A stretch of 64,000 bases of DNA from Clostridia bacterium (GTDB taxonomy: Bacteria; Bacillota; Clostridia; UMGS1883; UMGS1540). Under the pieces are notes generated by a model. That model searched no databases. It had not been told where the DNA came from and saw only the letters and a list, made by a program, of their open reading frames with translations. The stretch spans positions 67,713 to 131,712 of the forward strand of contig JAFZQX010000003.1 in the NCBI GenBank assembly GCA_017620205.1. The letters are read 5' to 3'. Positions 33,021-64,000 of the stretch are shown one piece after another. Numbering within the stretch: position 1 is the stretch's first letter; every line of letters starts with the position of its first letter. A program made the position numbers and the translations under genes.

Positions 33021-34541
33021 TTGATTAAAGTTGTAATTGCTGAAAACAATACCGAAATGTATAAACGCATGACGGAATGTATCGACCGCACAAGATTTGG
33101 AATAGAACTTGCCGCCTCGTTCCTCAACGGCCGTGACGCATTGGGGTTTTTGAAAAATAACGATGCAGATATACTTGTAACCGATATTAAAATGCCGCTG
33201 ATGGACGGATTTGAACTTATTTCAAACGCAAAGAAATTCAAGCCGGATCTCGGGATAATTGTTCTTAGCGGTATCGATAATTTTAAAACAGTAAAAAAAG
33301 CTTTTAAACTCGGCGTTGATGATTATGTTCTTAAAAAAGAATTCAATCCCGGTTCGTTTCTGCAGTTAATAAAAGAAGTTTATGACCAAAAGCAGAACGT
33401 AGCGGGGACAGACAAGCTCAGTGTTAACATGAAGGAATATACACTCCGCCAGTTTTTTTGGTCTGATACCCAATTGAGAAATAAGAAGAAAGAGCATCAT
33501 TTAGCGCCCGAAGCCGTGTACAGAGTTGCGATTTTGAAATTGTCAAATTACGAAACGGTTGTAAGAGCAGGGTGGAGCATGGAAAAAGAGCTTATGAAGT
33601 TCGGCCTTTCAAACTGTATCGCGGAAACGCTTGACAATTACGGATTCGGCGACTTTTTCTTTAACACTTACGATGAAGTCGTATTTTTATTTAAGGAAAA
33701 AGAGAACTCATGCGCAGAGATACGTAAAATTTTTTCGGATATTTTTTCTTTTCTGTCCCAGAGGTTTGGTATAATAGCGACCGGAGTTCTGTTTGATACA
33801 AAGGATTTGCCGGACCATAAGGAACAGTATTATATATTAAACCGTATGCTGGCGTATTCTTTCATATTCGGAAACGGCATTCTGCTGTCGGTAGATAAAA
33901 TCAACGGTTATAAAGATGAACCTGAGCTTTCCGGCGTTTCCGAAAGAATTGAAGTTGATTTGCTTAATATGGATCTTGCTTCATTCGGCGCGGAGATAAA
34001 GAATATTGAAACGATAAAGCCTGCTTATGAGTATATTTTCGGTATAAAAGATATTTATGTGAGAGTAATTAAAAAGCTCATTAAAATATTGAGAAACTAC
34101 GAGATGCCGGCTTCTTTGGTTAATCTCGGTGAGATTAATATGGAGTGTACATCTGTGTCTGAACTTAACAAGATTATATTTGAGGAGTGTTCTGCGCTTT
34201 CAAAAAGTATAGAATACTCCGATGTTGCAATTGTTCAGGTTCAAAACTATATCAAGGAGCACTATTCGTCTGCCATAAATCTTCAGTTTCTGGCAAAAGA
34301 GTTTCTTTTCAGTTATACCGATTTAAGCAGACGCTTTAAAAAAGCTGCCGGCATGAGTTTTTCGGAGTTTTTAAACGACGTTCGCCTTACAGAGGCCATG
34401 AAACTTATCAAAACGACCGATTACATGTGTTCAAAGATAGCTTTTGTTGTCGGGTATAAGAATTATGAGTGTTTCAGCCGTGCTTTTAAGAATAAATACG
34501 GTAAAGCACCTAATGAGGTTAGGAAAGAGAATAAACTATAG
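33021..34541 (+). CDS. YesN-type response regulator with AraC DNA-binding domain
   Basis: 506 residues, TTG start six bases after TGAGGT. The receiver domain (1-125) keeps the phospho-acceptor Asp (ILVTDIKMPLMDGFEL), a Ser in VLSG and Lys in YVLKKEF. Its acid pocket reads AENN, where VDDE is usual, so Mg2+ binding may be weakened. The middle ~270 residues are a linker seen in YesN proteins. The last ~100 form an AraC helix-turn-helix pair (INLQFLAKEFLFSYTDLSRRFKKAAG, CSKIAFVVGYKNYECFSRAFK). Such regulators activate neighbouring sugar importers. The partner histidine kinase (YesM-like) is absent here. Confidence 0.9.
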   Translation: MIKVVIAENNTEMYKRMTECIDRTRFGIELAASFLNGRDALGFLKNNDADILVTDIKMPLMDGFELISNAKKFKPDLGIIVLSGIDNFKTVKKAFKLGVDDYVLKKEFNPGSFLQLIKEVYDQKQNVAGTDKLSVNMKEYTLRQFFWSDTQLRNKKKEHHLAPEAVYRVAILKLSNYETVVRAGWSMEKELMKFGLSNCIAETLDNYGFGDFFFNTYDEVVFLFKEKENSCAEIRKIFSDIFSFLSQRFGIIATGVLFDTKDLPDHKEQYYILNRMLAYSFIFGNGILLSVDKINGYKDEPELSGVSERIEVDLLNMDLASFGAEIKNIETIKPAYEYIFGIKDIYVRVIKKLIKILRNYEMPASLVNLGEINMECTSVSELNKIIFEECSALSKSIEYSDVAIVQVQNYIKEHYSSAINLQFLAKEFLFSYTDLSRRFKKAAGMSFSEFLNDVRLTEAMKLIKTTDYMCSKIAFVVGYKNYECFSRAFKNKYGKAPNEVRKENKL

Positions 34542-34662
34542 AGTTAATAAAAAGCCTATAGAAACAATTACATAAATTTCGTATCGGTTCGTTGTGCAAA
34601 GCGCCGAAAATACCATTTTAAAAGGGTTTGTGACTATTATCCTAAAAAAAATATTGTTTATA

Positions 34663-34812
34663 TGGCAAAATAAACAAATAGAAAATGGCGTTTTAGTACC
34701 GTGAAATTACAGTTTTTCGTGGTAAAAATCGCACTGTTAGTGCATATTTGGCAAAAAATATCAAGTTTTCGCAAATTTAATCATGGTTATTTAAACTTAT
34801 ATATTTTATAAT
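34663..34812 (+). promoter_or_regulatory. Upstream region of the importer operon with TGGYAAAA repeats and a -10 box
   Basis: In the 332-bp gene-free AT-rich stretch 34542-34873, TGGCAAAA (34663), TGGTAAAAA (34720) and TGGCAAAAAA (34749) recur on the same strand. TATAAT (34807-34812) has only a poor -35 (TGGTTA), as expected for an activator-dependent promoter. They may be sites for the regulator encoded just upstream; inference. Confidence 0.35.
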
Positions 34813-34873
34813 AAAAAATAATAGGTGAAAATTAGACTAGAGTTAGTATGACATTTTTTGGAAGGAGAAAAAC

Positions 34874-35923
34874 ATGGGTAAAGAACAGAAATTCAAGGCA
34901 GAGAACCTTGAAAAAAACGCACAGACCAAGACAGAAAATTTGGTCGAAAATGTAACCGAAAAAGAAGTTGCTCTTAAAAATGCAGCCGCAGAAAAAGAGG
35001 CACCGGCTGTATCAACCGTCAGAAAGACTTCTGCCGGAGCATACTTCAAAAAACACAGAGCAACTTATTTATTCCTGCTTCCGGGAATTATTTGTTGCCT
35101 GATTTTCCACTATCTGCCTCTTGCCGGATTATCGATGGCGTTTATGAAAGTTGATATTCTGGATCTTTTCCACAGTCCCTGGATAGGACTTGAAAACTTT
35201 AAAAAGATTATCTCCATGCCGGACTTTACAAAAGCGATTTTCAACACCGCATGGCTCGGTTTTCTTAATATTATTATTAAGTTTCCCGCGCCTATAATAT
35301 TTGCGCTTCTTTTGAATGAGCTTAAGGACGGTATCGGAAAAAGGTTTACTCAGACAGTAAGTTATCTTCCTTATTTTATTTCAACAATAGCTGTCGTAGG
35401 TCTTGCAGTTACGCTGTTTAGCTCAGACGGTATAGTAAATGAAATAAGATCATACTTCAAGCCAAACGAGGAACCGATGTATTATTTGCTTGAACAGAAA
35501 TGCTTTGTTCCAATGAACGTTGGACTTGTTGTTTGGAAAAACCTCGGTTGGAGCTCGGTTATTTACCTTGCAACAATCTCAGGTATCGATGCTGCTCTTT
35601 ATGAGGCCGCTATTATAGACGGTGCCGGAAGGTTTAAACAATGTTTACATATTACAATTCCTTCTATTATAGGAACAGTTATCATTCTTCTCATTCTTGA
35701 AATAGGTAACCTCTTTAAGACAAACTTCGATATTATCTACGGTTTGCAGAACTCGGCAATAGATTATGAAGTAATTTCAACAATGGTATACAAAAAAGGT
35801 ATTCAGGGCAGTCAGTACGGAATTGCAACCGCACTCAGCTTGATGGAAGGCCTTATGAGCCTTGTGCTTGTTCTTGCAACCAACTTTATTTCGAAGAGAT
35901 TAAACGATACTTCGCTTATCTAA
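34874..35923 (+). CDS. LplB-type sugar ABC transporter permease
   Basis: 349 residues with six membrane helices and the inner-membrane-component EAA-like loop YEAAIIDGAGRFKQCLHITIPS, which docks to the ATPase. FLLPGIICCLIFHYLPLAGL and the N-terminal helix match LplB/YteP, which import oligosaccharides such as unsaturated rhamnogalacturonan or aldouronates. A 60-residue Lys/Glu/Ala-rich cytoplasmic extension precedes the first helix, longer than in typical members. No ATPase gene is nearby; these systems usually share an MsmX-like ATPase encoded elsewhere. GGAAGGAG precedes the ATG. Confidence 0.92.
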   Translation: MGKEQKFKAENLEKNAQTKTENLVENVTEKEVALKNAAAEKEAPAVSTVRKTSAGAYFKKHRATYLFLLPGIICCLIFHYLPLAGLSMAFMKVDILDLFHSPWIGLENFKKIISMPDFTKAIFNTAWLGFLNIIIKFPAPIIFALLLNELKDGIGKRFTQTVSYLPYFISTIAVVGLAVTLFSSDGIVNEIRSYFKPNEEPMYYLLEQKCFVPMNVGLVVWKNLGWSSVIYLATISGIDAALYEAAIIDGAGRFKQCLHITIPSIIGTVIILLILEIGNLFKTNFDIIYGLQNSAIDYEVISTMVYKKGIQGSQYGIATALSLMEGLMSLVLVLATNFISKRLNDTSLI

Positions 35924-35975
35924 GGCGGAATGTAGACAGAATACTGATTCATGTACAGAAAGGATATAATTTGTT

Positions 35976-36197
35976 ATGAAAAGAATATACGGATATCTGC
36001 TTTTGGCGATTTCTCTTGCAGCTGCTTTTTACGGCCTTAAAACAAATGCATGGAGAGACGCTCTTATAAGCACAAATCCCGCCGCACACTACGGCGCGAT
36101 ATTTGCAGCAATAGCTGTTGTAGCATTAATAATAGTAGCCATCTCAATGGCAGATATAATCAAAATAAATAAACTGCGCAATGAAGGCAACGGATAA
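35976..36197 (+). CDS. Small two-helix membrane protein between the permease genes
   Basis: Seventy-three residues with two likely membrane helices (YGYLLLAISLAAAFYGL and AIFAAIAVVALIIVAISMA) and a basic/polar tail. AGAAAGGAT lies upstream of the ATG. It sits between the LplB and LplC genes, with the LplC gene starting 13 bp later. No named family is recognised. It might be an extra subunit, or the detached first helix of LplC, which starts close to its first membrane segment here. Confidence 0.65.
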   Translation: MKRIYGYLLLAISLAAAFYGLKTNAWRDALISTNPAAHYGAIFAAIAVVALIIVAISMADIIKINKLRNEGNG

Positions 36198-36209
36198 AGA
36201 GTATTTAAA

Positions 36210-37088
36210 ATGTTTGTAATCTTGTTTATGCTCTTTATTGTAGCACTCACACTTTTCCCGTATCTTAACGTTTTGGCAAAAGCGTTTAACGACAGCGCGG
36301 ACGCGGCTAAAGGCGGTATTAAGCTTTGGCCGAGAAAGTTCACGCTTGAAAACTTCAAACAGATGCTCAGTGATAAAAATATTTATCATGCGCTTTATAT
36401 TACTGTAGCGAGAGTTGTGCTTGTAACAATAGGCGCCCTGCTCGTTCAGTTTATGACCGCATACGCTTTGACGCGTAAGCTTAAAGGTACGGCTCTGTTT
36501 AATATCTTCTTCCTTATCCCGATGTTTATAACGGGCGGTACGATGGCTTCGTTCGTGCTTTATAAATACATTGGTCTTTTGAATAATTTCTGGGTTTACG
36601 TTTTACCCGGTTTGTTTACCTTCTATAATGTTATAGTAATCAGATCATATATACAGACAAGTATTCCGGAGAGTATTATAGAAGCTGCTCATATAGACGG
36701 AATTTCGGAACTTGGTTTGTTCTTTAAAATAATACTTCCTCTTTCGAAGCCTATTCTCGCAACAGTAGCTCTTTGGGTTATGGTTGCTAACTGGAACGAC
36801 TGGACAACTACTCTTTACTTCGCTTCCAGAAATAAAGACCTCGAGACGCTGCAGTATAAATTGATGCAGACAATTCAAAAGAGCGCACAGCTGCAGAAGG
36901 ACATAAAGGCCGCACTTATTGAAGGCGGCGACGTTGAAGCTGCTAAGAAAGCTGCTTCTAAGAACATTCCGCCGGAAACTATGAAATCCACACAGATTAT
37001 TATAGTTACTGTTCCGATTATCATGGTTTATCCGTTCATCCAGAAATACTTTACAAAAGGTATTACATTGGGTGCTGTTAAAGGTTAA
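36210..37088 (+). CDS. LplC-type carbohydrate ABC transporter permease
   Basis: 292 residues; six membrane helices with the loop IPESIIEAAHIDGISELGLFFKIILPLSKP that contacts the ATPase. It matches LplC/YtcP. It begins almost at its first helix (MFVILFMLFIVALTLFPYLN), without the usual 10-20 residue cytoplasmic lead, and lacks a strong ribosome site, so translation may be coupled to the small upstream gene. Near the end there is a ~35-residue charged insertion (LQKDIKAALIEGGDVEAAKK) common in LplC homologues. Confidence 0.92.
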   Translation: MFVILFMLFIVALTLFPYLNVLAKAFNDSADAAKGGIKLWPRKFTLENFKQMLSDKNIYHALYITVARVVLVTIGALLVQFMTAYALTRKLKGTALFNIFFLIPMFITGGTMASFVLYKYIGLLNNFWVYVLPGLFTFYNVIVIRSYIQTSIPESIIEAAHIDGISELGLFFKIILPLSKPILATVALWVMVANWNDWTTTLYFASRNKDLETLQYKLMQTIQKSAQLQKDIKAALIEGGDVEAAKKAASKNIPPETMKSTQIIIVTVPIIMVYPFIQKYFTKGITLGAVKG

Positions 37089-37124
37089 TAATTTAAATTT
37101 GTATATTTTAATGGAGGTATAGTT

Positions 37125-39050: not shown

Positions 39051-39068
39051 TAAAAGGCAGGGCTTAGC

Positions 39069-42000
39069 ATGAAAAAATATATATGCATATTATTGGCAAT
39101 ATCAATGCTCTTAATGATGTGTATAAACATATCGGCGGATTCATTTACTAAGTATACACCTGAATCTGCAGGTCCAATGAATTATTCATTGGACCTCAGA
39201 TACCCCGTTTCTGCAAACGGGGCATCTGTGTCCGGGAGCTATCTTAATATGCCGGCAGGTTCAAGCGCTGAATATGATATATTCTTCGATTATGACGTAG
39301 AAAACCTTCAGGTGTCATATCAGGCTACTGCAGCCGGAACGCTTACAGTCGGTGTTGACGGAAACTCATATCAGCTTTCACTGGCTGCGGGCTCATATAC
39401 GGTAAACAAGGATATTATTGAGAGAAAGGGCTCTCATACAATAAGTCTTTCTTTTGCCGGGACCGGCTTAATAACAGATGTCAGTTTCAAAAAGGCTAAA
39501 ATTGACAATACCGGTATAAGCCAGCAGTACACCGTATATAACATTGATTATAATGATTATGACAAGGCAATGCAGACGGCAGTTGCAGTTTCAACTTCTA
39601 AAGTTGCTATTAAGGTAAACGGGGCTTTCCGTTACCTTGATTATACGGATACTTCGCTTTCTCCTTTGAACATTGACGGAAGAATTTATCTTCCCATACA
39701 TGCCGCTGCGAGAGCGTTTTCGCTGTACTATGAGGATTATCCCGATAAAGCGTATGCTTATTTGAGCAATGATGATTTTGAGATTTATCAGAAAGAAAAT
39801 GATTGCTACGTAGTTATAAACGGTGAAAAAATAGATAATTACGGAAGATTTGCGATTTATTTAAATGGCACTACATGGGTCCCGTTCCGTCAGTTGGCAG
39901 AACTTCTCGGCGAAAAAGTTGAGTGGCGACAAGACCATAGAGGAAACGGCTACGCAATAGCCGACGACAGAATAAGAGCAAAGGCTATAGTTTCAAACGA
40001 TGACATTTTCAATGACCTTGTTGATGAATTTTCTCAGTTTGATGTCTCCGGTCTCCGGAGGAATAAAACTTATTATGTCTCACAGACAGCAGGATCGGAT
40101 ACGAATATCGGTACTTCCGAAGCAGCACCGTTTGCAACAATTCAGAAGGCCGCAGATGTGGCACAGGCCGGTGATACAGTTATTATTCACGGCGGTGTAT
40201 ACCGCGAAACCGTTAAGGTTAAAAACAGCGGAACCGCGACACAGCCTATTGTTTTCAAAGCGGCAGATGGGGAAGACGTAACTATTTCCGCTTTTGATAA
40301 GGTCAGCGGTTTTACCAAGTCGAGTTATAATCAGAACGGTTATGATCTTTATCAGGTAACGCTCGCAAAATCAATGGGATATGACAGAAACTTTGTTATA
40401 AGAAACGATGAAATTCTTCGTGAAGGCAGGTATCCGGACAACGATGATCATCCTCTTGTAAGTCCGCACCCGAATATGAATGAAAACGTAATGCGTGCGA
40501 CGATGGGTAACATAGCTATGCCTTCGCCAAGTGCGGTCTCCGGTAAAACATTTACCTACACAACAACCGACGGAACCTTTTCAAAAGCATACGAATATGA
40601 TTTTGCAATAAGTGATACTGATCTTAATCAGTCAAAGAATTATTGGAAAGACGGCACATTTGTTACTCTTACGGGTCAGGCTTATACATTGTCTTACGCC
40701 CGTATTGACGCAAGTGACAATCATATAGGTGCAAACGATAACATAGGTTGGATTCATTTGATTGATAACAACAAGGGCGGATATGATTTTGTAGGACCCG
40801 AAAAAGAAAATCAGAATTTGTTCTACAAATCAAAAAATTCCGATGACTACGGTTATATTACGCACCATTTAAAGACTGTTACATTGCCCGGCGAATGGTA
40901 TGTTGACCACAGTAAAAAAATACTGTATATCATACCTCCCGAAGGTGTTTCGGGCTCCGCACTGGAAGTTGAGGTTAAGCAGCGTCAGTGCGTAATTGAT
41001 ATGACCGGTAAAAGCTTTGTTCAGTTCCATGATATTAATACACGCGGCGGCGGCGTTACAATGGCGGCGCAGTTCACAAATGGCGAAGTTACAGATACCG
41101 AAATGGATATTTTAGACGGCGGTACTCATAAATATATTTCCCAGATAGACTGGACCGCTGCTCACGCAACACACGACGGAAGATATATATACAGACAGCA
41201 AACCAACAGAGTTGCAACTAAGAATCAGGACGGTCCGGAGCTCGGTGAAGTTGGTTTCTATACACACGGAAAAAACAACGCGATTGTAAATACGCATATC
41301 GCATATTCGGCGCAGGCCGGTATTTATACAACAGGTCTTTATACATATATAGAAAATAATTACGTTGAAAACGCAAGCTATATGGGTTCGTATCCGGGTG
41401 CAATTACTCTTGAAGGCGTTAAGTGGAATTCAGACCCCGGCGCCAAATCGGGCGGCCATACTGTTGTAGCTAATACAATGGTAGGTTCCGGTCGCGGCAA
41501 CCTGTATCTCAGCCGAGGCGTAGCCTATGCTAACAGTTCGAAGGTAGATCCCGAAACGATGTATCCATATATTGCGTGTGATCTGTCGTATAACCGTATA
41601 CAGATGGGCGCAGTTTCATCAAGGGATACAGGCAGTGTCTACATTTACGGTACGAGCGCCGGAAATGACCTTTTAAAGACACGGCTTCATCACAATATTA
41701 TTTATGATATGGGCACTCTTGAAAAGAACTCAATGATGAATGCTCTTATTTATCATGACGGTTATGCAAACTTTATCAATACATACTCAAATATGACATT
41801 TGATACGGCTAAAGGGTATGTAGGATATGATTTATTCCAGCATACTTCAGCAGATCATTACAGAAACTATGTTGAAAAATGGGGTAATGTTTCGCTCGGT
41901 ACAATCACAAGCGGCGTTACATGCGATATGCAGGATACTTTCAGCAAGAAAGACTATCCGTACGGCAAGCCGTTTGACGTAGGTTCAACAAGAGACGGTC

Positions 42001-43013: not shown

Positions 43014-43036
43014 GTCGATTAAAGAATTTATCCTTT

Positions 43037-46938: not shown

Positions 46939-46969
46939 TAAATTTGAAAAAACAGGGAGTGTGAATTTG

Positions 46970-48562: not shown

Positions 48563-48633
48563 CATTTATAATTATTAGTTATTTGTTTATTTGTTGTTTT
48601 TAACATTCTAATTATATTTTGAGGAAAATGATT

Positions 48634-52515: not shown

Positions 52516-52551
52516 CTAAACATTTAGTGTTAATATAGATTTGTTTTCAGT

Positions 52552-52588: not shown

Positions 52589-52615
52589 GACTAAAATTTG
52601 AAAGGATTGGTTAGT

Positions 52616-55600
52616 ATGAAGAAGTTTTTGACAATTTTTTTCTTAGTAGCCTTGCTTCCGCTGTGCTATGTGTTGACGGCACATGCGGCTGAAACGGTTA
52701 CTATTGATGCAAAGAGTTATAATCAAGGTAAGCCTGCAAAAGTAGGCGCCACATCAATCTCTTTGTCTAAAGGGCAGTCTGTCGGTTTTGATATTGACTT
52801 CGCAATATCGCCTACAGAGATTTCCTTTATCTGTTCAAACGATGCGCATCACTCGGGCCCGGTTGAGATCCATTTAGACTCATCAAGCGGTCCTATTCTT
52901 GCGAAACTTTCAACGAATCCTAACGTTGAATGGGTAAGGGTTAACTATACGGCGCCTATAAAAACGGATATTTCAGGCCCTCACCAGATTTGGTTCGTTT
53001 TCCAGGGCTTATCAACCGACTTTGTAAGCGTATCCTTTGTAATTCAGGATCCTGCTGATATGTATGAAAGCTTCGTGACACAGTCGGACGCTTTCAATGA
53101 TATTGCGGACAATCCTCTCCGCACTCAGATAAATGTTCTTGCCGATCTCGGCATTCTTTCTAAAAGCCAGGAAAGCTTTGACGCGGAAAGACTTGTTTCA
53201 AAACGTGATTTTCTCCGCGCTGTGAGCGCTTTTTATCAGGAAACGGTTGTAGGACTTCAGGAAGAGCAGCTGTTTGCCGATATAACCTCGGCTGACAAGG
53301 ACTATAATCTTGTTAAATGGCTGTGCGGTACAGGCGTTTTAAAGGCAGATCCGTATTCAAATTTGAACCTTGACAGTTCTGTAAGCTTTGATGAAGCTAT
53401 AGGATACCTTGTAGGACTTCTTGAATATGACAACGAAGTTGAACTTCGCGGCGGCGTTTTGCAGACGGCTAACCGCCTCGGACTTTTAAAGGGCGTTAAC
53501 GTTTCATCCGCAAACGATGTTAAGAACAAGGATATGGCAAAACTCCTTTGGAATGCGCTCCAGAGCAAGTATAACAACACCGTATCCGTATCGTCAAAAG
53601 GTTTGGTTAAATATCAGTCTGAAGACGATGTTATGGAATACACAGGTCTTATAAACGGTGGGGAAGACGTTATATACGCAACACAGAACTCTAACATTTA
53701 CTCGGGACCGAAAGCACCCGTTTCGGCAGTAATGATAAACAATGAGGTATACTACGTTGGCAAAACAGACGCTGCTAAATATCTCGGTTTTAAATGTATT
53801 TACTTCTATGAAGACGTTGACGGCAGAAAAACATTACTCGCAGCAAGACCTGCTATGAACATTCAGTATCAGAGTATTTCTTCGCAGGATTATGAAATTG
53901 AGAAGATTACAGACGATCTCGTTTCGTATTATGAAAACAACAAGGAAAAACAGTTCCGTTTTGCAAATGATGCTATTATAGTTTATAACGGAACAAAGAC
54001 GACTGAGAATCTCGAAGATCTGGTTGAAAAGAATAAAAAGGATAAATTCAACGGCAGAATTCTTCTTGTTGATAACGATAACGATAACAGATATGATATT
54101 GTTATGGTAGATCAGGCGAGAACAATCGTTTTCGGCGGTTACACAATGAGCGCAGATTCCACTTCTGTTTATGACTTACTCGAGAACAATTCTATTGTTT
54201 CCGACAAAGACACACGCGTTATTCTTCTTTACGGAGTAAACGGCGGCTCTTGGGCTAATGCAAAACCCGGTACTGTAATGGACGTATACGAGAGCGAAGG
54301 CATTACCCGTTATGTACCTTCATCCGAAACAGTAACAGGTACAGTTAAGGAAATCAGCAAAAACGGCGGAACTGTTACCGTAGTAATGGATGACGGCGGC
54401 GAATATGAAGCTTATGATAAAAACAATTCTGATATCATAACGGGCGAGACCGTAACGATTAAACTTAATTCTTTCGGTCAATATGTTACATATACGAAAT
54501 CAGAGACTTCGAAAATAGGCGTTGTTCTCGGCGCAGGCACCGAAAAAGACGGACTTGAAGTTATTCCTCGCATTCGTCTCCTTACGGAGAAAAATGAAAA
54601 GGTAGTTTTTGATTTTGCAAACCGCGTATATTTCGACGGCGTAATTCTCAAAAAGCCTGAGGATATTGAAAGCAAATTATCGGCTGTCAGCGAAAGAGAT
54701 ATAGTTATCTATAATACAAACGCAAACAATGAAATAATAATGATTGACACCGCAGTAGATGTGGCACGCAATAAATACGATATTCTCACACCTACCATTA
54801 CGCTGAATTCGGATAATAAATTAACAAGTACATATATCGGATTGGTTGACGCTGATCCGACACCACTCGGTGTTGTACGTAACTCATTAAAGGCAGTAAG
54901 CGTACCGGTAAACGGAAACGAAGATCAGTATGAATTTGTTAATTTTAATTCAGGAAAAGCACCGTTTTCCGGATACAGCACAACGCTGAATCCCGTAACA
55001 GGCAGAGCTTCATTCTTGACGGATCTCATTGTTATACAGAGACCCCCGAGAACTTCTACAAACGACAGAGAAGCAAGCTTTATAGTTACAAGAAAATTCG
55101 ACAGACTTGGTGATGACGGCGAAATTGAAATAGTTATTGAAGGTATGAACAAGGGCGGAAAGGTTACATATGTGGTAGATAACTATACATTAAACGGCGA
55201 TGTAGTTGTTACAACGGCAGACAATCCTAAACTGACGGATACATTCTACGCAAGTGAACAATTGCGTGAAGCCGTTGAAGCTGTTAAACCCGGAGACATT
55301 GTTCAGCCTGCTGTTGATCCTGCAGGTAAAATTACTTACCTTGCAGTAAACTATTTTGGTGATGAAAGAACAGATCCCAATTGCAAGCCTGAAATTCCCG
55401 GTGACGGAACAAAATACGCAACTGATATTACCGACGGTAAGGGCGGCCTGTTTAAAGGCAGAGTTTTAAATACCGAAGAAGGTTTTGCCGAAGTTGAGTA
55501 CATTAACAAGGACGGCTCAAAACGCAGCGCTTACATAGACGGTAACACATTAAAGATTTATGCAGTTACACTCAGAAACGGAAATGCAATTGTTGAAACG

Positions 55601-55696
55601 GTTGGTGCAAGTTGGCTCAGAGTTGATGAAGAAGTTCTTGTTTCATTCGACTCTTACGAATACAAACCCGCCATGGCAGTTGTATTTTGCAGATAA
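52616..55696 (+). CDS. SLH protein with N-terminal CBM6-like domain and long beta-rich region
   Basis: 1026 residues from ATG 52616, signal peptide to about 24. Residues ~25-145 form a CBM6-like sandwich (GPVEIHLDSSSGPILAKL, then ISGPHQIWFVFQG). SLH repeats cover about 150-330 (FNDIADNPLRTQINVLADLG, FADITSADKDYNLVKWLCGTG). A ~700-residue beta-rich region with repeated short modules such as TVTGTVKEISKNGGTVTVVM follows. Its plan resembles that of the 13720-15984 protein. It would link the glycan-binding machinery to the wall polymer. No enzyme motif is visible. Confidence 0.75.
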   Translation: MKKFLTIFFLVALLPLCYVLTAHAAETVTIDAKSYNQGKPAKVGATSISLSKGQSVGFDIDFAISPTEISFICSNDAHHSGPVEIHLDSSSGPILAKLSTNPNVEWVRVNYTAPIKTDISGPHQIWFVFQGLSTDFVSVSFVIQDPADMYESFVTQSDAFNDIADNPLRTQINVLADLGILSKSQESFDAERLVSKRDFLRAVSAFYQETVVGLQEEQLFADITSADKDYNLVKWLCGTGVLKADPYSNLNLDSSVSFDEAIGYLVGLLEYDNEVELRGGVLQTANRLGLLKGVNVSSANDVKNKDMAKLLWNALQSKYNNTVSVSSKGLVKYQSEDDVMEYTGLINGGEDVIYATQNSNIYSGPKAPVSAVMINNEVYYVGKTDAAKYLGFKCIYFYEDVDGRKTLLAARPAMNIQYQSISSQDYEIEKITDDLVSYYENNKEKQFRFANDAIIVYNGTKTTENLEDLVEKNKKDKFNGRILLVDNDNDNRYDIVMVDQARTIVFGGYTMSADSTSVYDLLENNSIVSDKDTRVILLYGVNGGSWANAKPGTVMDVYESEGITRYVPSSETVTGTVKEISKNGGTVTVVMDDGGEYEAYDKNNSDIITGETVTIKLNSFGQYVTYTKSETSKIGVVLGAGTEKDGLEVIPRIRLLTEKNEKVVFDFANRVYFDGVILKKPEDIESKLSAVSERDIVIYNTNANNEIIMIDTAVDVARNKYDILTPTITLNSDNKLTSTYIGLVDADPTPLGVVRNSLKAVSVPVNGNEDQYEFVNFNSGKAPFSGYSTTLNPVTGRASFLTDLIVIQRPPRTSTNDREASFIVTRKFDRLGDDGEIEIVIEGMNKGGKVTYVVDNYTLNGDVVVTTADNPKLTDTFYASEQLREAVEAVKPGDIVQPAVDPAGKITYLAVNYFGDERTDPNCKPEIPGDGTKYATDITDGKGGLFKGRVLNTEEGFAEVEYINKDGSKRSAYIDGNTLKIYAVTLRNGNAIVETVGASWLRVDEEVLVSFDSYEYKPAMAVVFCR

Positions 55697-55713
55697 TTGG
55701 GAGGAGAAATAAC

Positions 55714-57483
55714 GTGAAAAAATTAATCAGAATACCTCTTATACTAATTCTTATATGCTGTCTCTCTTGCAGTTATTTGACTGTCGGAGTGTCGGCGGCA
55801 TCCAATAAAATAAGTCTGTCCACGAGATTTGACGTTGATAGTTCTAAGCTCTATATTTCGGGTACCATTAACAGTGAAAAAGGTAATATACCCGTGATAA
55901 TGACATTTTCGAACCAAGACGGAGAAGTTATTGCGGCTGACCAGTCTGTAACTAATTATGCAAGTGAGGGAGAAATCAAATTTTCATTTGACCCGATTCC
56001 GTTTGCGCCGGAAACTCCCAGCGGTGATTATAAAATCTATGTTTCTGCAGCGTATATAAATGAAGATAAAACAGAAATATATACTTATATCGGTCCTGAC
56101 AGCCGTTTTGACTTAGTTCAAAGAATAAACGAAGCAGTTAAAGGCAAAGATAAGAACGGCGTTGTTAATACTTTGTCTGATTATAGGGATGTTGTAACTG
56201 ACGGCGATAACAGTCTTTTCTCACTGTCTTCAAACGCAAAATCCGTATTTGCCAAACAGTTTATAGCAAAAGGAAAATACGAAATTCCTGAAGGTTATGC
56301 AGAAGATGAGGATATTGAATTATTAAAAGAGTCTGTAAAAAAGATTTCAAGCAGTTATAAAGATGCACTCTGTTTTGGAGAAGCAGTAGATATTTCAAAC
56401 AAAGCCGGTATGCAGGCATGGCTTGATAAATATGCTGAAGAAAGAGGACTCTTTGAAGACTCACCCGAAACAGAATATAATGAGGCTGACCTTAAAGCGT
56501 ATTTTGACAAAGCAATATCAAACGATGGTTTGTATGATAGAGTTAGTAAAGCAGCGAAAGCGGCGAAAGACTTTGCCGAACTTAAAGATGAAATTCTCAA
56601 AGCCGGCGTTTTAGAAGCTTTGCAGGAGGCTAAGCCGGCAGTTATCCAGGAAATAGTTGAGAATAATACAGATTTACTTCCCGTTGACATTGAAAACTTC
56701 AACAAACTTAAAGCCACACAAAAAGTGGAGGTTTGCAAAGAGCTTACTAACGATAAGTTCAGCAACGTAGAAGATTTTGTTAAGAAGTTTGACGACACTG
56801 TAAACGACATCGCTGAAAGTGGATCAGACAGCTCAAGCGGCAGTAGCAAGAGCAGTAGTAAGGGCGGCGGCAAGGGCGGAAATTATACATCAACTCAGAC
56901 TGCTCCCATAAACACAAAAGATGCAGTAGTTTCTTCAGCAACAAGCGATGAATTCGCTGATCTTGAAGACTGCGAATGGGCTAAAGAAGCCGTAGGTTAC
57001 CTTGCGTCAAAAAGCGTAGTTTCCGGTAAAGCAAATGGCGTTTTCGATCCTTTCACGCCTGTTACCAGAGCTGAATTTACAAAGATGGTTGTTTTGGCGT
57101 TCGGCATACCCTCAGAAAGCTACGAAGGTAACTTCTCCGACGTGTCTGAAAGCGACTGGTTTGCTCCTTACGTTGCGGCTGCATATAAATCCGGCGTTGT
57201 AAACGGTATGGGCGACGGAACATTCGATCCCAATGCGCTTATAACACGTCAGGATATGGCAGTGCTTTTATACAGAGCAAAGGGCATGTCACCGTTACCT
57301 GAAGAAAAAGATGTTTACTACGATTCCGAAAACATCAGCGACTACGCTAAGAGCGCAGTATTCGCGCTTTACTTCAACGGTATCGCGCTCGGCTACGGTG
57401 ACGGCACATTCGGGCCTCTTAATAACGCAACAAGAGCAGAAGCAGCACAGATGATTTATAAAATGGTAACATTTGATAAATAA
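55714..57483 (+). CDS. Surface protein with three C-terminal SLH repeats
   Basis: 589 residues; GTG 55714 after GGGAGGAG is the likely start, giving the signal peptide KKLIRIPLILILICCLSCSY. An N-terminal beta domain (~30-135) is followed by an alpha-helical region (~140-375), a Ser/Gly/Lys-rich flexible linker, and three canonical SLH repeats (FADLEDCEWAKEAVGYLASK, FSDVSESDWFAPYVAAAYKS, DSENISDYAKSAVFALYFNG) with TRAE motifs. It is the last gene of the long unit, 17 bp after the previous stop, and is followed by a strong terminator. It is a likely wall anchor or scaffold. Confidence 0.82.
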   Translation: MKKLIRIPLILILICCLSCSYLTVGVSAASNKISLSTRFDVDSSKLYISGTINSEKGNIPVIMTFSNQDGEVIAADQSVTNYASEGEIKFSFDPIPFAPETPSGDYKIYVSAAYINEDKTEIYTYIGPDSRFDLVQRINEAVKGKDKNGVVNTLSDYRDVVTDGDNSLFSLSSNAKSVFAKQFIAKGKYEIPEGYAEDEDIELLKESVKKISSSYKDALCFGEAVDISNKAGMQAWLDKYAEERGLFEDSPETEYNEADLKAYFDKAISNDGLYDRVSKAAKAAKDFAELKDEILKAGVLEALQEAKPAVIQEIVENNTDLLPVDIENFNKLKATQKVEVCKELTNDKFSNVEDFVKKFDDTVNDIAESGSDSSSGSSKSSSKGGGKGGNYTSTQTAPINTKDAVVSSATSDEFADLEDCEWAKEAVGYLASKSVVSGKANGVFDPFTPVTRAEFTKMVVLAFGIPSESYEGNFSDVSESDWFAPYVAAAYKSGVVNGMGDGTFDPNALITRQDMAVLLYRAKGMSPLPEEKDVYYDSENISDYAKSAVFALYFNGIALGYGDGTFGPLNNATRAEAAQMIYKMVTFDK

Positions 57484-57493
57484 AAGTCTTTAA

Positions 57494-57527: not shown

Positions 57528-57598
57528 GCGCAGTATATTTTTTAGGGATAAAACTTGATTAAACAATTTGGGATATTTATTATTGGAGAGATGATAGT

Positions 57599-60500
57599 AT
57601 GAAAAAATTCAGAAAACACTTTGCATTGATGCTTGCGTTATCAATGCTTCTCGGCTTGATTACAGTTGGCACTGCTGTCTCGGTTTCTGCCGACACGACA
57701 GCGCTTTTGGAACTTGATTTTTCAAATTTTCAAGCGGTAACCTTTGTGCCGTCAAGCCCCACCGAATCGGCAGTTATAAATAAGACTTCCGGCATTGCTA
57801 AAAGCGGGTCATGGGCTAACAGTACAGTTTTGGGCTTTGCGGCAAGAGCTGACGGTGAAACTGCTTTAACAAAAAAGTCTTTTTCAAATGCAGGCGGAGG
57901 AGCTACATATTATATTGATTATTATGATTCTAAGGTTTATCCGAACGTAGCAACCGGTAATTCTTATTCAAAACACTTAACAGACGTTCAGTTTTTTAAC
58001 AGCAACCTCGAATCGGCAGACAATACTGTTTCATTTTGGGTTGATGTAACTGAGAGCGCATGGTTTAAAGAAATCCTTTGTTACAGAGTTGATTATACAC
58101 AAAGCGGCACAGCTGCTTCAAAATCATTTGACCTTGGTATAAACCCTGACGGCACATGGAATGCTTTATGTTCGTCGTTGGCATCAGCTGATCATGCCGG
58201 TGCAAAAACGGACGGTGCTTTCTCTGTTCCCGCAGGCTGGAAACACGTTGTTATTACAAATCCTAAACGCTCCGGAAACTCTAAGACTATGAGCGTATAT
58301 GTAAACGGTGAGTTTAAAAAGAACGTAACTCTTGATATTCCGGACAATGCGACCATAAATCATGCAACCGTATCGTTTTTCAGTAAATCTGCCGGTGAAA
58401 ACCCAGGCAGTGAATACTGGAGATCAAATTGGTGGCCCGCACCTGCAGGTCAGCTCGCTGAAGTAAAAGTATATGACGGCGTTTTAACAGGCGGCGAAAT
58501 ACAGGAAAAATATAATAGCGAGATCCCTTTGTTTACAGTATTTGAACCTATTGAGTTTTTAAACGCGGATGGGGAAGAAGCTCTGAAGCTTGATGGCCTT
58601 TCATCGCTTACTTTAAAATACAATCCTGTATCCGATGAGCCCGTAATTGCTTTTGCCGCTTGCTGCAACGGGGAAGGTAAATTACTTGAAATAAAATGCC
58701 TGATGGGTAATAAAGAAGATACGGTATCATTTGACGTGCCTGTCGGAACAAGCGTGGTTAAAGGCTATGCATGGTACGCTTCAAATTTGAATCCCATTAT
58801 AAAGCCCTTAGAGATTTCATACAGTGATGGCTTTGATCCGGGTTCGGTTTCCGTAACAGGTGATTTTTATGACGGCAGCGGGAACGCTATTACATATATG
58901 GCCGGCAAGTCAGGCATAAACGGCAAAGTATCTTTAACGTCTGCAAACCCTCCCGCCGGTGTAAAAGCAGAGCTTTATCTTGATAGGAACGGATCAAAAG
59001 TGTTTACTGATGTAAGAGACGTTGCTTTCACAGGCCAGACTGCTGAAGTTACAATTCCGTTTTCGGGAGTTGCGGCCGCTGAAGGCGACAAACTTGTTCT
59101 TACCGTTTACACGAGCGCCATTACGTTATTTGAAAAGAAGATAGACTATATTGACGGCTCAAAGATAGTTGACGTTTTGCTTGTTATGGGCCAGTCAAAC
59201 GCAGAGGGACAGGGAGGCAATAGTGAACAAAGTGAAATTCCCGAAGATGGAACGGTTTATCGCAAAAACATGAACGAAAAGGCAAAAGGAAATAATGGCT
59301 GGGATAACTCGCTCGGTAAGAAGTGGCATGAAGAAACAGGACACACCGTTTTAATAGTTAAAGCAACATGGGGAGCAACAGGATTTCCGCCGAAACCGAA
59401 TTTTTATACGGGTGAAGTAAGCACAACCGGCAGCGCCGAATGGGGATACTGGAATCCTGACAATACAGCCGATCCGGACGGCAAACCAAGAAACTGCTAT
59501 GCAAAAGCTAAACAAAGATATGCCGAAGCTATTGCGTCAATAGATACCACTAAGTACACAATAGGTGACTGCATCATGTTCTGGAACCAGGGCGAAAATG
59601 AGAACTTGTCATATACTGCAGCTGACTATGAAGCTGCTTTTATGGAGATGTATAACAGCGTTAAAGCTGAATTCGGCAGCGCCGATTCAAAGATTACCGC
59701 TTGCGGTATTCTTCCTATCCGTTCTAACCAAACGAAGAGTAAGTCGGGCGAGAACCTGTTGCTGACAGGTCCGAGAATTGCACAGTATAACATGGCTAAA
59801 AAATATGATGATATTGCACTCGTTATGGATTGCACGGAATACTGGTACAAAGACGAAGGCGTTAAAAACTGGTTTGAAGCAAAATACGCAGGTATAACTT
59901 ATCCGTTAAACGGCGGTATTAAGCCTTCAAAATGGAGAGATATTATTCAAAGTGACGATGTTCATTACTTGCAGCCTGCTTTAAATGAAATGGGGCAGGA
60001 GGCAGCAAAATATATGCTCGCATACATAAAGGGCACAAACGTTCCAACGGGTATCGATCTTATTACGCCGACGGGTATTCAGCACTATGAAAACGGCGCG
60101 TCAATCACGCTCGGAACAGACGGCGCAATTCCCGTTATTCCCGCACCTGTCGGCACAAAGGCGGCGTTTAGTATAAACGGCAGAGCTGCCATAATAGATG
60201 AAAACGGAGTTTTAAGACCTTGCGGTGCTCCCTCGGACAGCTATTCAACTCTTACTGTAACGCCTGCGGCGGGCAGCGTTATGACGTTTAAAATTTATTC
60301 TCCCACGGTTGATAACAGCATTGCCATAGCGGAAGTAAAAGATAATAAAGACGCAATTTATACAATCACAACAGACGACGGCTTTCACGATACTAACTTC
60401 TTTATAGATGAAAAGCTTCAGCAGTATAATATGAGAGCGACTTTGGGCGTTGTTACATCCACTGTGGGCGGCAGCGGAAAAGTATCGTGGAATGATTTGC

Positions 60501-61282
60501 AGACGCTTGTAAATTCCGGCAGATGGGATTTGGCAAACCATACAAAAAATCATAAGCAGAGCACATTTTCATCGCTTACTGAAGCGGAGCTCCAAGAAGA
60601 AATAAACGGCGCAAGACAAATAATCTTAGAACACTTCCCGTCGCAGAAGGTGCTATCTGTATATACCCCGGGCGGAATATCAAGCAGTATGATTAAAAGC
60701 GTTGCAGCAGAAGAGCATCTCGTATTCCGCCTTGCAGGCGGCGGTAACAATAGCTGGCCGCTTTCAATGGACAACATAATGGAAGTAAGCGTAAACGGTC
60801 CTATGGCAGGTGCGAATAATACAGGTGTCAGCACCATGAACGGCTGGATAGACAGCGGAATTTCAGGCAAAAAATGGATCGTTGAAATGTGGCACGGTAT
60901 TGGAAATGATGCATCAAGCTGGAGTGGCAATGTGTCTGAGCAAAACGCGGCAGAGCATTTCGCTTATGCGGCGCAGAAGAGAGATGAAGGAAAGCTTTGG
61001 GTTGCAACACTTGACGAAGTGGCTGTATATAACGCGGAACGCCTCGCGGCAAACATTCGGAAAGTTTCCGAAAGCTCAAGCCAAATGGTTCTAAGCCTTA
61101 CTGACGGTCTTGACAATTCGGTTTATGACCAACCCATTACATTAAACATAACTATTCCTTCGGGGAAAAGCGGTGCGTCGGTTACATGCGGCGGCAATAA
61201 CCTTGCCGTAACGGCGTCAAACGGAAAAATAAGCTTTTCCGCAGTTCCCGACACAGGCAACATAACAATTAATTGGCAATAA
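57599..61282 (+). CDS. Secreted LamG protein with SGNH sialate-O-acetylesterase-like and NodB deacetylase domains
   Basis: 1227 residues, signal peptide to about 31. LamG domain ~33-310, shared ~90-residue module ~315-410, a beta domain ~417-520. The SGNH/carbohydrate-esterase (DUF303-type) domain has Ser533 in MGQSNAEGQGG, NQGENE (663-668) and Asp786/His789 in DDVHYLQPA. After a linker, a polysaccharide deacetylase (CE4) domain has the TTDD motif (Asp926, Asp927) and HTKNH (His981, His985), then YTPGG. A short beta domain ends the protein. It would remove O- and N-acetyl groups from one glycan, with binding by the LamG part. GGAGAG precedes the ATG; a terminator follows, so it is monocistronic. 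Confidence 0.85.
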   Translation: MKKFRKHFALMLALSMLLGLITVGTAVSVSADTTALLELDFSNFQAVTFVPSSPTESAVINKTSGIAKSGSWANSTVLGFAARADGETALTKKSFSNAGGGATYYIDYYDSKVYPNVATGNSYSKHLTDVQFFNSNLESADNTVSFWVDVTESAWFKEILCYRVDYTQSGTAASKSFDLGINPDGTWNALCSSLASADHAGAKTDGAFSVPAGWKHVVITNPKRSGNSKTMSVYVNGEFKKNVTLDIPDNATINHATVSFFSKSAGENPGSEYWRSNWWPAPAGQLAEVKVYDGVLTGGEIQEKYNSEIPLFTVFEPIEFLNADGEEALKLDGLSSLTLKYNPVSDEPVIAFAACCNGEGKLLEIKCLMGNKEDTVSFDVPVGTSVVKGYAWYASNLNPIIKPLEISYSDGFDPGSVSVTGDFYDGSGNAITYMAGKSGINGKVSLTSANPPAGVKAELYLDRNGSKVFTDVRDVAFTGQTAEVTIPFSGVAAAEGDKLVLTVYTSAITLFEKKIDYIDGSKIVDVLLVMGQSNAEGQGGNSEQSEIPEDGTVYRKNMNEKAKGNNGWDNSLGKKWHEETGHTVLIVKATWGATGFPPKPNFYTGEVSTTGSAEWGYWNPDNTADPDGKPRNCYAKAKQRYAEAIASIDTTKYTIGDCIMFWNQGENENLSYTAADYEAAFMEMYNSVKAEFGSADSKITACGILPIRSNQTKSKSGENLLLTGPRIAQYNMAKKYDDIALVMDCTEYWYKDEGVKNWFEAKYAGITYPLNGGIKPSKWRDIIQSDDVHYLQPALNEMGQEAAKYMLAYIKGTNVPTGIDLITPTGIQHYENGASITLGTDGAIPVIPAPVGTKAAFSINGRAAIIDENGVLRPCGAPSDSYSTLTVTPAAGSVMTFKIYSPTVDNSIAIAEVKDNKDAIYTITTDDGFHDTNFFIDEKLQQYNMRATLGVVTSTVGGSGKVSWNDLQTLVNSGRWDLANHTKNHKQSTFSSLTEAELQEEINGARQIILEHFPSQKVLSVYTPGGISSSMIKSVAAEEHLVFRLAGGGNNSWPLSMDNIMEVSVNGPMAGANNTGVSTMNGWIDSGISGKKWIVEMWHGIGNDASSWSGNVSEQNAAEHFAYAAQKRDEGKLWVATLDEVAVYNAERLAANIRKVSESSSQMVLSLTDGLDNSVYDQPITLNITIPSGKSGASVTCGGNNLAVTASNGKISFSAVPDTGNITINWQ

Positions 61283-61296
61283 TATTTAAGTTTTTA

Positions 61297-61327
61297 AAAG
61301 GCACGGCTCAAAATAGCCGTGCCTTTT
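61297..61327 (+). terminator. Terminator after the esterase/deacetylase gene
   Basis: AAAAGGCACGGCT/AGCCGTGCCTTTT (61297-61308 region with 61315-61327), loop CAAAAT. The T run is part of the stem end. Confidence 0.85.
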
Positions 61328-61449
61328 AAACGCAAAAAAGTATTTCACTGTTTTGTGCATTTTTAACTAATATTTGAACTTCGCGTTTGACCAATTAAAG
61401 GATTAATTGTATATTCTGACGTAAAATGCTCTTCGGGTTTATTTGGATA

Positions 61450-61478
61450 TTTACTTTATAAGGTATTGGTGATATAAT
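61450..61478 (+). promoter_or_regulatory. Promoter of the last LamG gene
   Basis: TTTACT (61450-61455), 17-bp spacer, TATAAT (61473-61478) with extended TG; the start codon is 33 bp on. Separate transcription from the previous gene fits the terminator upstream. Confidence 0.7.
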
Positions 61479-61511
61479 ATTGTAGTAAAGCTTATAAAGG
61501 AGAGGAAAATT

Positions 61512-64000
61512 ATGAAAGTATTCAGAAAACACTTATCATTACTGCTTGCGGTATCAATGCTTTTAGCCTTGTTTGCAGTAAGCGGTTCTATCACGGCTTC
61601 TGCCGATCCGACAGCGCTTTTAGAACTTGATTTTTCTAATTTTTCAGCGCAAACTTTTCATGCACCTAATATCGAAGAATCAGAACTTGTCGGCAAGACA
61701 TCGGGCGTTACCGCAACCGGAACACTCGCTGCAAGCACAACTTTGGGCTTTGCCGCAAGAGATGACGGCGGAACCACGTTGACAAAAGAGTCTTTCGCAA
61801 ATGCCAACGGCGGAACTACATATTATATTGACTATTATGATGCTAATGTTTACCCTAATGTAGCAACGGGTAATTCTTATTCCAACCACTTGACGGATGT
61901 GCAGTTTTTTAACAGCAACCTTGAAGCATCGGACAACACGATTTCTTTCTGGGTTGATGTAACGGCAAGCGCTTGGTTCAAAGAAATTCTTTGTTACAGA
62001 GTTGACTATACCAAAGCCAACGGTGATACTTCTTTAAGATCTTTTGACCTTGGTATTAACCCTAACGGCACATGGAATGCTGTTTGTGAATCGTGGGCGG
62101 CTGCTGCACACGCAAGCGCAAAGACAGACGGTGCTTTCTCTGTTCCCACGGGCTGGAAACACGTTGTTATTACAAACCCGGTTCGTTCCGGAAACTCAAA
62201 GACTTTGGACGTGTATGTAAACGGTCAGTTTAAAAAGAGCGTAACGCTTGATATACCTGACACAGCAACCGTAAATCATGCAACTGTATCGTTTTTCGGT
62301 AAATCAGACGGTACTAACAATGCAAGTCAATATTGGAGAGCGAATTGGTACAACCCGCCCGCAGCTCAGCTCGGCGGCGTAAAAGTATATGACGGCGCAA
62401 TGAGTGCTTCTGATGTTGCAAGTCTTTATACTGCACAGCTCCCTGAGTTTTCAGAAGATACCGGACTGCAGACAATTACCGGTTATTCATTTTCCGACGC
62501 TACGGTAGACTATGACGGCGCAAGCCATAATATTACCGTTACTGCGGCACAGGGAGCAACAGAAGGCATAAGCATTGCTTATACATGCAACGGCAGTGCT
62601 TTTTCGGGCGCTACTGAAGTCGGAACATACGATATAACGGCTACAATCACAAAAGACGGCTATCAGCCCCTTGTGTTAAGCGCAACGCTTAAAATCAAGC
62701 AGGTGACAGTTCAGCCGACAGCCGGTGATCTTCTTGTGGATCTTGACTTTTCAACATATGTAAAAGACGATAGTCAGACAGATCCCAACACCGTAGCAGG
62801 ATCTGTTGGTGAAGTTACAAATAACGGTCTCCTTGCAAATACAACCATACTTAAATTCAAATCAAGCGCTATGGTTCAGAACTGGTGCCATTATGATTTG
62901 GCGCTTGAGTCATTTGCAAATGCCGCAGGCTCTACAACATATTATTTGCACAAAACAGTTGGAGTTGACTACTGCACAGACGGCAACAGATTTTCTACTA
63001 TTATAGAAGAAGGCCTTGAAGATCAGGCAAACACAATTTCCTTCTGGGCAAATCATGTTCCCTGCAACAGATCCGGCGCACAGTGGAATATTCTTGACTA
63101 TTCCGCGGAATACGGCGGCACATCAAACATTTTGTTCTCGTTAAACCAGGCGGGAACAACAACCAATAAATTTGTTCTTGTTGGCAGAGGCGAAACACCT
63201 AGTTACGGCGACATTACGGATATTGCGGCAGGCAAGTGGGCTCACTATGTTGTTACAAATCCGGAATATACATTAAATACAGACACAGGCAACTATGAAA
63301 AGACGATGCAGGTGTTTGTAAACGGCGTATGGAAAGGTCAGAAAGTTGTAACAAGACCTTCGGGTACGCTTACAACTGCAAAAATTGCTTTGGCAGGCGA
63401 GGCTGTAAACCCCGGATCTAACAGCGGTAAAAACTGGCCGACCGATATATCGTTCGGCGATGTTAAGGTTTATGCAGGCACAATGTCTGCTTCAGAAATA
63501 ATGGCAAAATATAACGAAGAACTTCCCCGTTATAACAATACTCCTCCGGTTCAAATTATAGAGTTTGTAAACGGTTCGGATGTTACAATAGAAAACCTTG
63601 ACAACCTTCCGTCCGTAACACTTAAATATAATCCCGAATCAGATGATTTGGCACTTTGCTTTGTTGCTTGCTATGATGAAAACGGAGAGCTGCTCGCAGT
63701 TTCTTGTATGAGAACAAACACAGAAGGTACTATAACTGTTGAAATCCCGGACGGAACAAGCGTAGTTAAAGGTTACGCATGGGATGCGGCAACTTTAGCA
63801 CCGATTTCTGATTGCAAAGAGCTTACATACAGTGAAGGATATGATCCGAGCGACGTAGGCGTTACAGGTAATATCTACGACGGAAGCGGAAATGTAATTG
63901 ACTGCTTATCCGGCAAATCCGGCATAAACGGCAGAGTGACAATTTCGTCACTTCAACCGCCTACGGGAGTTAAAGCAGAGCTTTATCTCGACAGAAACGG
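61512..64000 (+). CDS. Secreted LamG/MBG protein, paralogue of the 57599 product (partial, open at the right edge)
   Basis: At least 829 residues, open past the window end. The signal peptide (LSLLLAVSMLLALFAVSG) is followed by LamG 1 (~36-315), an MBG domain (~317-395, TITGYSFSDATVDYDGASHN), LamG 2 (~410-680), the shared ~90-residue module (~681-775, ending GYAWDAATLAPIS) and the start of the beta domain that precedes the esterase in the 57599 protein (SGKSGINGRVTISSLQPPTG, KAELYLDRN). An SGNH domain may therefore follow beyond the edge; this is a prediction. AAGGAGAGG precedes the ATG. It has its own promoter. Confidence 0.83.
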   Translation, partial: MKVFRKHLSLLLAVSMLLALFAVSGSITASADPTALLELDFSNFSAQTFHAPNIEESELVGKTSGVTATGTLAASTTLGFAARDDGGTTLTKESFANANGGTTYYIDYYDANVYPNVATGNSYSNHLTDVQFFNSNLEASDNTISFWVDVTASAWFKEILCYRVDYTKANGDTSLRSFDLGINPNGTWNAVCESWAAAAHASAKTDGAFSVPTGWKHVVITNPVRSGNSKTLDVYVNGQFKKSVTLDIPDTATVNHATVSFFGKSDGTNNASQYWRANWYNPPAAQLGGVKVYDGAMSASDVASLYTAQLPEFSEDTGLQTITGYSFSDATVDYDGASHNITVTAAQGATEGISIAYTCNGSAFSGATEVGTYDITATITKDGYQPLVLSATLKIKQVTVQPTAGDLLVDLDFSTYVKDDSQTDPNTVAGSVGEVTNNGLLANTTILKFKSSAMVQNWCHYDLALESFANAAGSTTYYLHKTVGVDYCTDGNRFSTIIEEGLEDQANTISFWANHVPCNRSGAQWNILDYSAEYGGTSNILFSLNQAGTTTNKFVLVGRGETPSYGDITDIAAGKWAHYVVTNPEYTLNTDTGNYEKTMQVFVNGVWKGQKVVTRPSGTLTTAKIALAGEAVNPGSNSGKNWPTDISFGDVKVYAGTMSASEIMAKYNEELPRYNNTPPVQIIEFVNGSDVTIENLDNLPSVTLKYNPESDDLALCFVACYDENGELLAVSCMRTNTEGTITVEIPDGTSVVKGYAWDAATLAPISDCKELTYSEGYDPSDVGVTGNIYDGSGNVIDCLSGKSGINGRVTISSLQPPTGVKAELYLDRN

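Follow-up and report, generated by a model that had tools for sequence, protein, structure and literature searches.

Gene content and limits of the cluster

The stretch analysed here (the window, 64,000 nucleotides, bases 67,713–131,712 of a 141-kb contig) comes from a Clostridia bacterium whose genome assembly comprises 2.34 Mb in 46 contigs. Its second half holds a cluster of genes for a regulator, a sugar importer, giant exported proteins and wall proteins with surface-layer homology (SLH) domains, probably a surface system for harvesting a glycan. An earlier note on this DNA had listed a regulator, the permeases LplB and LplC, a binding lipoprotein, two beta-helix enzymes, LamG and SLH proteins and an esterase/deacetylase on one strand, and we confirmed this content (Table 1; genes are named in the text by their first coordinate). 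From 33021 to the window end all main genes lie on the + strand, and the same-strand run reaches the end of the contig, about 9.6 kb past the window. The genes upstream of 33021 are housekeeping genes (peptidyl-tRNA hydrolase, an Mfd-type helicase, peptidyl-prolyl isomerase and YebC), so we regard 33021 as the natural left border of the cluster. Between LplB and the SLH gene, neighbouring genes are about 10–145 bases apart, and no + strand terminator-like site lies within any of these gaps; promoter-like sites are at roughly the level of shuffled sequence in the first half and higher in the second. A single transcript for the LplB-to-SLH genes is plausible.

Table 1. Genes of the cluster, with positions in the window and the basis of each assignment.
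Feature	Position	Strand	Basis
YesN-type response regulator, REC + AraC HTH	33021..34541	+	Pfam Response_reg, HTH_18; Asp55 present
LplB-type permease	34874..35923	+	BPD_transp_1; 51–58% identity to orthologues in G194, G390, G419, G422, G435
Small membrane protein, 73 amino acids	35976..36197	+	Sequence reading
LplC-type permease	36210..37088	+	BPD_transp_1; 48–60% identity to orthologues
Extracytoplasmic binding lipoprotein, 641 amino acids	37125..39050	+	Lipobox FSGC; 34–49% identity to syntenic binding proteins
Beta-helix protein 1	39069..43013	+	Signal peptide, CuAO-N1, GH141/GH120-like helix; candidate catalytic D853/D897
Beta-helix protein 2	43158..46892	+	54% identical to beta-helix protein 1; candidate catalytic D794/D838
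Exported LamG-like/Big_5 protein	46961..48562 (likely start 46970)	+	Big_5; LamG+Big_5 positional counterparts in G390
Exported protein, LamG x3	48619..52515 (likely start 48634)	+	Laminin_G_3 x3, E 1.8e-30
CBM6 + degenerate SLH triad + long beta-rich region	52598..55696 (likely start 52616)	+	Profile; orthologues
Triple-SLH wall protein	55687..57483 (likely GTG start 55714)	+	SLH E 4e-38
LamG + SASA esterase-like + CE4 deacetylase-like protein	57599..61282	+	Pfam; motifs
Second LamG-SASA-CE4 gene, start portion only in window	61512..64000	+	Frame broken past window end

The gene order recurs in other families

To survey the class we searched 391 sampled genomes for the beta-helix family (E ≤ 1e-20), and took further carriers from order-level searches. 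The family is rare: 8 of the 391 genomes have a match and, beyond the first helix turns, only G194, G337 and G390 match besides the window's own genome (G000). The order LplB, LplC, binding protein, one or two beta-helix genes, one to three LamG/Big_5 genes, CBM6/SLH protein and SLH protein is present at five loci in other families of the class (G194:C12, G390:C16, G419:C69, G422:C36 and G478:C8, written as genome:contig); in the last of these the binding protein is short and diverged and the permeases are diverged. Three more loci have partial or diverged versions: G337:C4 (diverged), G422:C94 (partial) and G435:C153, which is ended by the contig edge and contains YesM-YesN, LplB, LplC, a binding protein, a LamG-SASA-CE4 homologue and two beta-helix genes. 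The earlier note had named the lack of a conserved neighbourhood as an outcome that would speak against it; the neighbourhood does recur in other Clostridia-like genomes.

Identity to the window proteins, G337 and G478 left aside, is 48–60% for the permeases and 34–49% for the binding proteins; with every locus counted, it is about 28–40% for the beta-helix proteins and about 22–30% for the products of the two SLH genes. Sequence conservation is thus weakest for this SLH pair, yet their position and architecture are kept, and full-length homologues of the triple-SLH protein (55687) are found in G194, G390, G419, G422 and G478. The 73-amino-acid open reading frame is absent from the other loci, where LplB and LplC adjoin directly.

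Related genes are also found elsewhere in the window's genome. On contig C13, a paralogous binding protein (64% identity) is paired with a beta-helix gene. A parallel locus at C27:1-14435 consists of YesM-YesN and LplB-LplC-binding protein genes followed by tandem GH141-type proteins (match to 5MQP, E 8e-30). On C32, the genes after a beta-helix paralogue with a shortened C-terminus encode a DUF6935+SLH protein and a giant CotH-domain protein; no importer adjoins this paralogue, so the pairing of beta-helix gene and importer is not absolute. By the tree, duplication of the beta-helix gene arose separately in several lineages, and retention of two copies therefore seems to have been repeatedly favoured. 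LamG and SLH domains are expanded genome-wide (38 and 110 matches, respectively) and so are not, by themselves, specific for the cluster. Many giant proteins encoded in these 2.3 Mb, including those at window positions 48619-52515 and 57599-63998, contain LamG, often together with MBG/Big-type domains.

The beta-helix proteins resemble GH141 enzymes

In the beta-helix proteins, Pfam recognises CuAO-N1 and the initial turns of the helix, plus CBM6 in some members, and nothing else. The CuAO-N1 domain is present in all 16 family members, and a CBM6-like C-terminus in many. We rejected a reading of the CuAO-N1 match as the mark of an amine oxidase, because there is no amine oxidase catalytic domain and CuAO-N1 is common in surface proteins. 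A profile built from the 16 members has its best sequence match to the GH120 enzyme XylC (3VST, E = 4e-31); this alignment is limited to the first ~95 residues, corresponding to the first helix turns, and is not a full-length homology. Weaker matches are to PL9 (5olq, 3e-8), to GH141 BT_1002 (2e-6) and, at the C-terminus, to CBM6 (1w9s, 2e-9).

An AlphaFold2 model of residues 140–960 of the 43158 protein (mean predicted local distance difference test score 76, predicted template modelling score [pTM] 0.83) has as its top Foldseek matches in the PDB the 5MQP chains of GH141 BT_1002 (E 3e-15 to 3e-14), with GH120 XylC second. The match to 5mqp_A (probability 1.00, TM-scores 0.42/0.57) covers a beta-helix with an inserted domain, as in the GH141 fold. 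BT_1002 requires D523 and D564, and both residues are also present in Xyn141E (PMC12786026, PMC5593877). The aspartates of YDVAGVY and YTDEG are at positions 528 and 569 of the 5MQP chain, a spacing of 41 that agrees with D523/D564 at an offset of 5. The motifs D-[TG]-G-x-x-Y and Y-x-D are present in 16 of 16 family members, with a spacing of 44 between the two aspartates in both window enzymes. Judged by motif, spacing and modelled fold, the two aspartates given for each enzyme in Table 1 are likely to be the catalytic pair. The Pfam model GH141_M matches 5 of the 16 members at E ≤ 1 (best 2e-4). Taken together, the proteins look like an uncharacterised branch near GH141.

Putative wall anchors and the LamG-SASA-CE4 protein

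A profile of eight orthologues of the 52598 protein matches CBM6 (2v4v, 5e-16) and the SLH regions of Sap (2e-11) and of other S-layer proteins, and Pfam finds SLH in 6 of the 8 orthologues. The SLH part is visible only through the profile or the orthologues; since both reveal it, we regard this CBM6 protein as itself an SLH protein. Its AlphaFold2 model is poor (pTM 0.36), so that fold matches beyond CBM6 mean little. ARAGORN calls a tRNA-Glu at 54101-54176, within the 52598 coding sequence; it has no Rfam support and is probably spurious.

Anchoring by SLH domains is known to need a CsaB-type pyruvyl transferase. The genome has a single gene of this type, away from the cluster, and the 55687 protein has three canonical SLH domains. 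No catalytic domain was recognised in the 52598 or 55687 protein. The 57599 protein keeps the motifs GQSN, DxxH, TTDD and HTxxH, and has a homologue within the G435 locus (40% identity over 920 amino acids). We read anchoring and catalysis as assigned to separate conserved proteins.

In the second LamG-SASA-CE4 gene the frame breaks at a run of T within the deacetylase domain, close to base 133,117 of the contig (G000:C7 ~133,050-133,140). The break may be an assembly error, decay or phase variation, which are indistinguishable here. The genes that follow it encode a LamG protein, an isomerase-like protein with a TIM barrel and a protein of 1159 amino acids (G000:C7 137,489-140,968) for which Pfam, NCBIfam and the PDB sequences gave no match.

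Importer and regulator

There is no ATPase gene within the importer operon, and the genome has a single MalK/MsmX-type ATPase gene, on another contig, as expected for a CUT1 importer with a shared ATPase of the MsmX type. The binding lipoprotein has no Pfam match and was assigned by its conserved position and lipobox. Among the compared loci, the closest homologue of the regulator is in G435 (31% over 509 amino acids), where a YesM-type kinase gene adjoins it. The statement in the earlier note that this transporter family imports uronate- or rhamnose-containing oligosaccharides has a real precedent in YtcQP-YteP of Bacillus subtilis, an MsmX-dependent importer of such oligosaccharides (PMC5730181); this precedent does not fix the substrate here.

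A proposed system for capture, cutting and import

A minimal Gram-positive polysaccharide-utilisation locus (gpPUL) comprises an enzyme, a transport system and a regulator (PMC5320581). The cluster has a transport system, a regulator (REC+AraC, 33021) and GH141-like and CE4/SASA domains linked to LplB, LplC and the lipoprotein, degradation being predicted from these domains. We think it probable that this is a gpPUL working as a wall-anchored machine that captures, cuts and imports a glycan. The CBM6+SLH (52598) and triple-SLH (55687) proteins would bind the secondary wall polymer through their SLH domains, and CBM6 and LamG modules would keep the glycan close to the wall. The two giant GH141/GH120-like beta-helix proteins would hydrolyse it using the Asp pair, as their fold and conserved residues suggest, while the LamG-SASA-CE4 protein would strip acetyl groups. 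The oligosaccharides would be imported by the lipoprotein with LplB and LplC, powered (to judge by the transporter family) by the shared MalK/MsmX-type ATPase from elsewhere in the genome, and the YesN-type regulator would presumably turn the genes on. The wall-bound polysaccharide-utilisation system of unassigned substrate proposed earlier is thus supported by gene content and conserved order.

Several observations weigh against this proposal. In sequence comparison, the presumed catalytic half of the beta-helix profile, at the C-terminal side, has no homologue in the PDB, which is why we assign the Asp pair from motif, spacing and fold. GH141_M (PF21231, cut-off 27 bits) scores only 11.8 bits in the window enzyme, and we therefore call the enzymes GH141-like and not GH141. 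The regulator at 33021 has no kinase gene beside it, in agreement with its earlier description as an orphan YesN, and so does not form a YesM-YesN pair in the window. Neighbouring enzymes vary between carriers, which makes one common substrate uncertain; given this variation, the core may be a chassis applied to different glycans in different hosts. Lastly, the beta-helix enzymes have no SLH domain, dockerin or sorting signal (we looked for signals of the LPXTG type and found none), which leaves their wall attachment unexplained. If they are kept near the wall at all, it must be by way of CuAO-N1, the SLH proteins or simple retention. A candidate sorting signal in a neighbouring protein, LPLTN in the tail of 46961, was discarded because no hydrophobic tail follows it. 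A non-cellulosomal scaffold, with the two SLH proteins as wall platforms for hydrolases that lack an anchor of their own, CuAO-N1 as the docking module and the hydrolases forming a separate GH family near GH141, is an idea that we hold as rather doubtful.

Substrate and alternative explanations

Genes near the loci in other genomes hint at substrates. Near the G390 locus are two GH10 genes, genes resembling a sugar-acid dehydratase, a 2-keto-3-deoxygluconate (KDG) kinase and an aldolase, and a GH1-like reading frame; near G478 there are glucuronoyl esterase, GH116, GH28-like and fucosidase-like genes; and near G419 there are GH31, SASA, PIG-L and FGGY kinase genes. GH3 occurs in G194, and GH94 in G337 and G422. 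The two GH94 genes (in G422, C94:17752-20058) are 81% identical although the two genomes belong to different families, both are near beta-helix loci, and horizontal transfer is likely. Because the neighbours in some carriers hint in that direction, we lean towards acetylated glucuronoxylan, and an acetylated hemicellulose of this kind is our first, tentative guess at the glycan. A survey of GH10 and GH28 in carriers and relatives did not establish the substrate: GH10 occurs more often in carriers (5/8, compared to 7/33 relatives; one-sided P = 0.034, uncorrected, with genome size as a confounder), GH28 is not enriched (5/8 compared to 15/33, P = 0.32), and neither family was found in the window's genome.

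Known GH141 activities include a fucosidase acting on rhamnogalacturonan (RG)-II (BT_1002), a xylanase and endo-fucanases (PMC12786026 for the last). Two other outside glycans come into consideration. The same machine could serve pectin (RG-I or RG-II), importing uronate/rhamnose oligosaccharides as YtcQP-YteP does (PMC5730181) and using GH141-like enzymes as in RG-II breakdown; the best fold match is indeed an RG-II fucosidase, PL9 matches the profile weakly, and the dehydratase-, KDG kinase- and aldolase-like genes in G390 would suit this substrate. We nevertheless think pectin unlikely, since GH28 is missing from the window's genome and not enriched in carriers, no PL1, PL9 or PL11 family was called in the locus, and the xylanase and fucanases show that GH141 is not confined to RG-II. 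A fucosylated, sulfated or host glycan such as fucan or mucin, with GH141-like endo-fucanases or fucosidases and SASA as a sialate or sugar O-acetylesterase, would agree with the existence of GH141 endo-fucanases (PMC12786026), the lack of GH10 and GH28 in this genome and the fucosidase-like gene near the G478 locus. That gene, however, is a neighbour in one carrier only, and no sulfatase or sialidase was called in the window locus; we regard such a glycan as quite unlikely.

It is also conceivable that the cell modifies or recycles its own envelope (a wall polymer or S-layer glycan) and does not eat an outside glycan. This would fit the lack of catalytic domains in both SLH proteins, the presence of CE4 and esterase domains and, in the beta-helix proteins, that of CuAO-N1, which is typical of surface proteins. 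But the operon encodes an importer for sugars together with a regulator of the inducible type, the locus occurs in few genomes whereas walls with SLH proteins are common, and its flanks in other genomes contain catabolic and CAZyme genes, making this very improbable. Least credible is a chance run of unrelated surface genes, which the LamG and SLH richness of the genome might suggest. The LplB-to-SLH run is more than chance because its gaps are short and its order, with homologous genes, is found again in several families, and the binding protein and beta-helix pair has a paralogous counterpart on C13. This evidence already contradicts a chance run from LplB to the triple-SLH gene; some of the genes past 61512 may still have come together in that way.

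Comparison with known systems

What is new here is the order conserved across families, the candidate catalytic pair of GH141-like enzymes and the two dedicated SLH partners, in neither of which a catalytic domain was recognised. We found no description of this locus layout in the open-access literature, which is an incomplete set. If our reading of the cluster as a capture, cutting and import system is right, it represents a conserved and apparently undescribed layout for glycan harvesting by Gram-positive bacteria, in which anchors, giant enzymes and importer are separate genes of one cluster. It would also nominate an enzyme group near GH141 with a testable catalytic pair, and provide a small set of orthologues that could be put through glycan-array and activity screens.

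Like the gpPULs of Roseburia and Eubacterium rectale (PMC5320581), the cluster links a regulator, an ATP-binding cassette (ABC) sugar importer and enzymes, here predicted ones, that act on polysaccharides; unlike them, its conserved core combines giant exported beta-helix proteins with LamG proteins and two dedicated SLH proteins, and its beta-helix enzyme family is not among the families named there. It shares with YtcQP-YteP/MsmX of B. subtilis (PMC5730181) importer genes without an ATPase gene and one MalK/MsmX-type ATPase elsewhere, a likeness drawn from gene content and not from direct identity to YtcQ. The beta-helix enzymes have in common with GH141 (BT_1002, Xyn141E and the Wf141 fucanases) the beta-helix with inserted domain and the Asp pair motif at similar spacing, and Xyn141E also carries CBM6, as many family members do; they differ in scoring below the GH141_M cut-off, in having no full-length sequence match and in the extra CuAO-N1. 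GH120 XylC (3VST) ranks first by sequence for the initial helix turns and second by fold, but the conserved dyad follows the GH141 pattern. In the xylan system of Paenibacillus sp. JDR-2 (PMC4765114), as proposed here, CBM and SLH modules hold depolymerisation at the surface, coupled to ABC import. There, CBM, GH10 and SLH are on one polypeptide encoded distal to the transporter cluster, whereas here anchors and enzymes have separate genes in one cluster, and the genome lacks GH10. By analogy, it is this SLH/CBM xylan system that the cluster would most resemble in the way it works.

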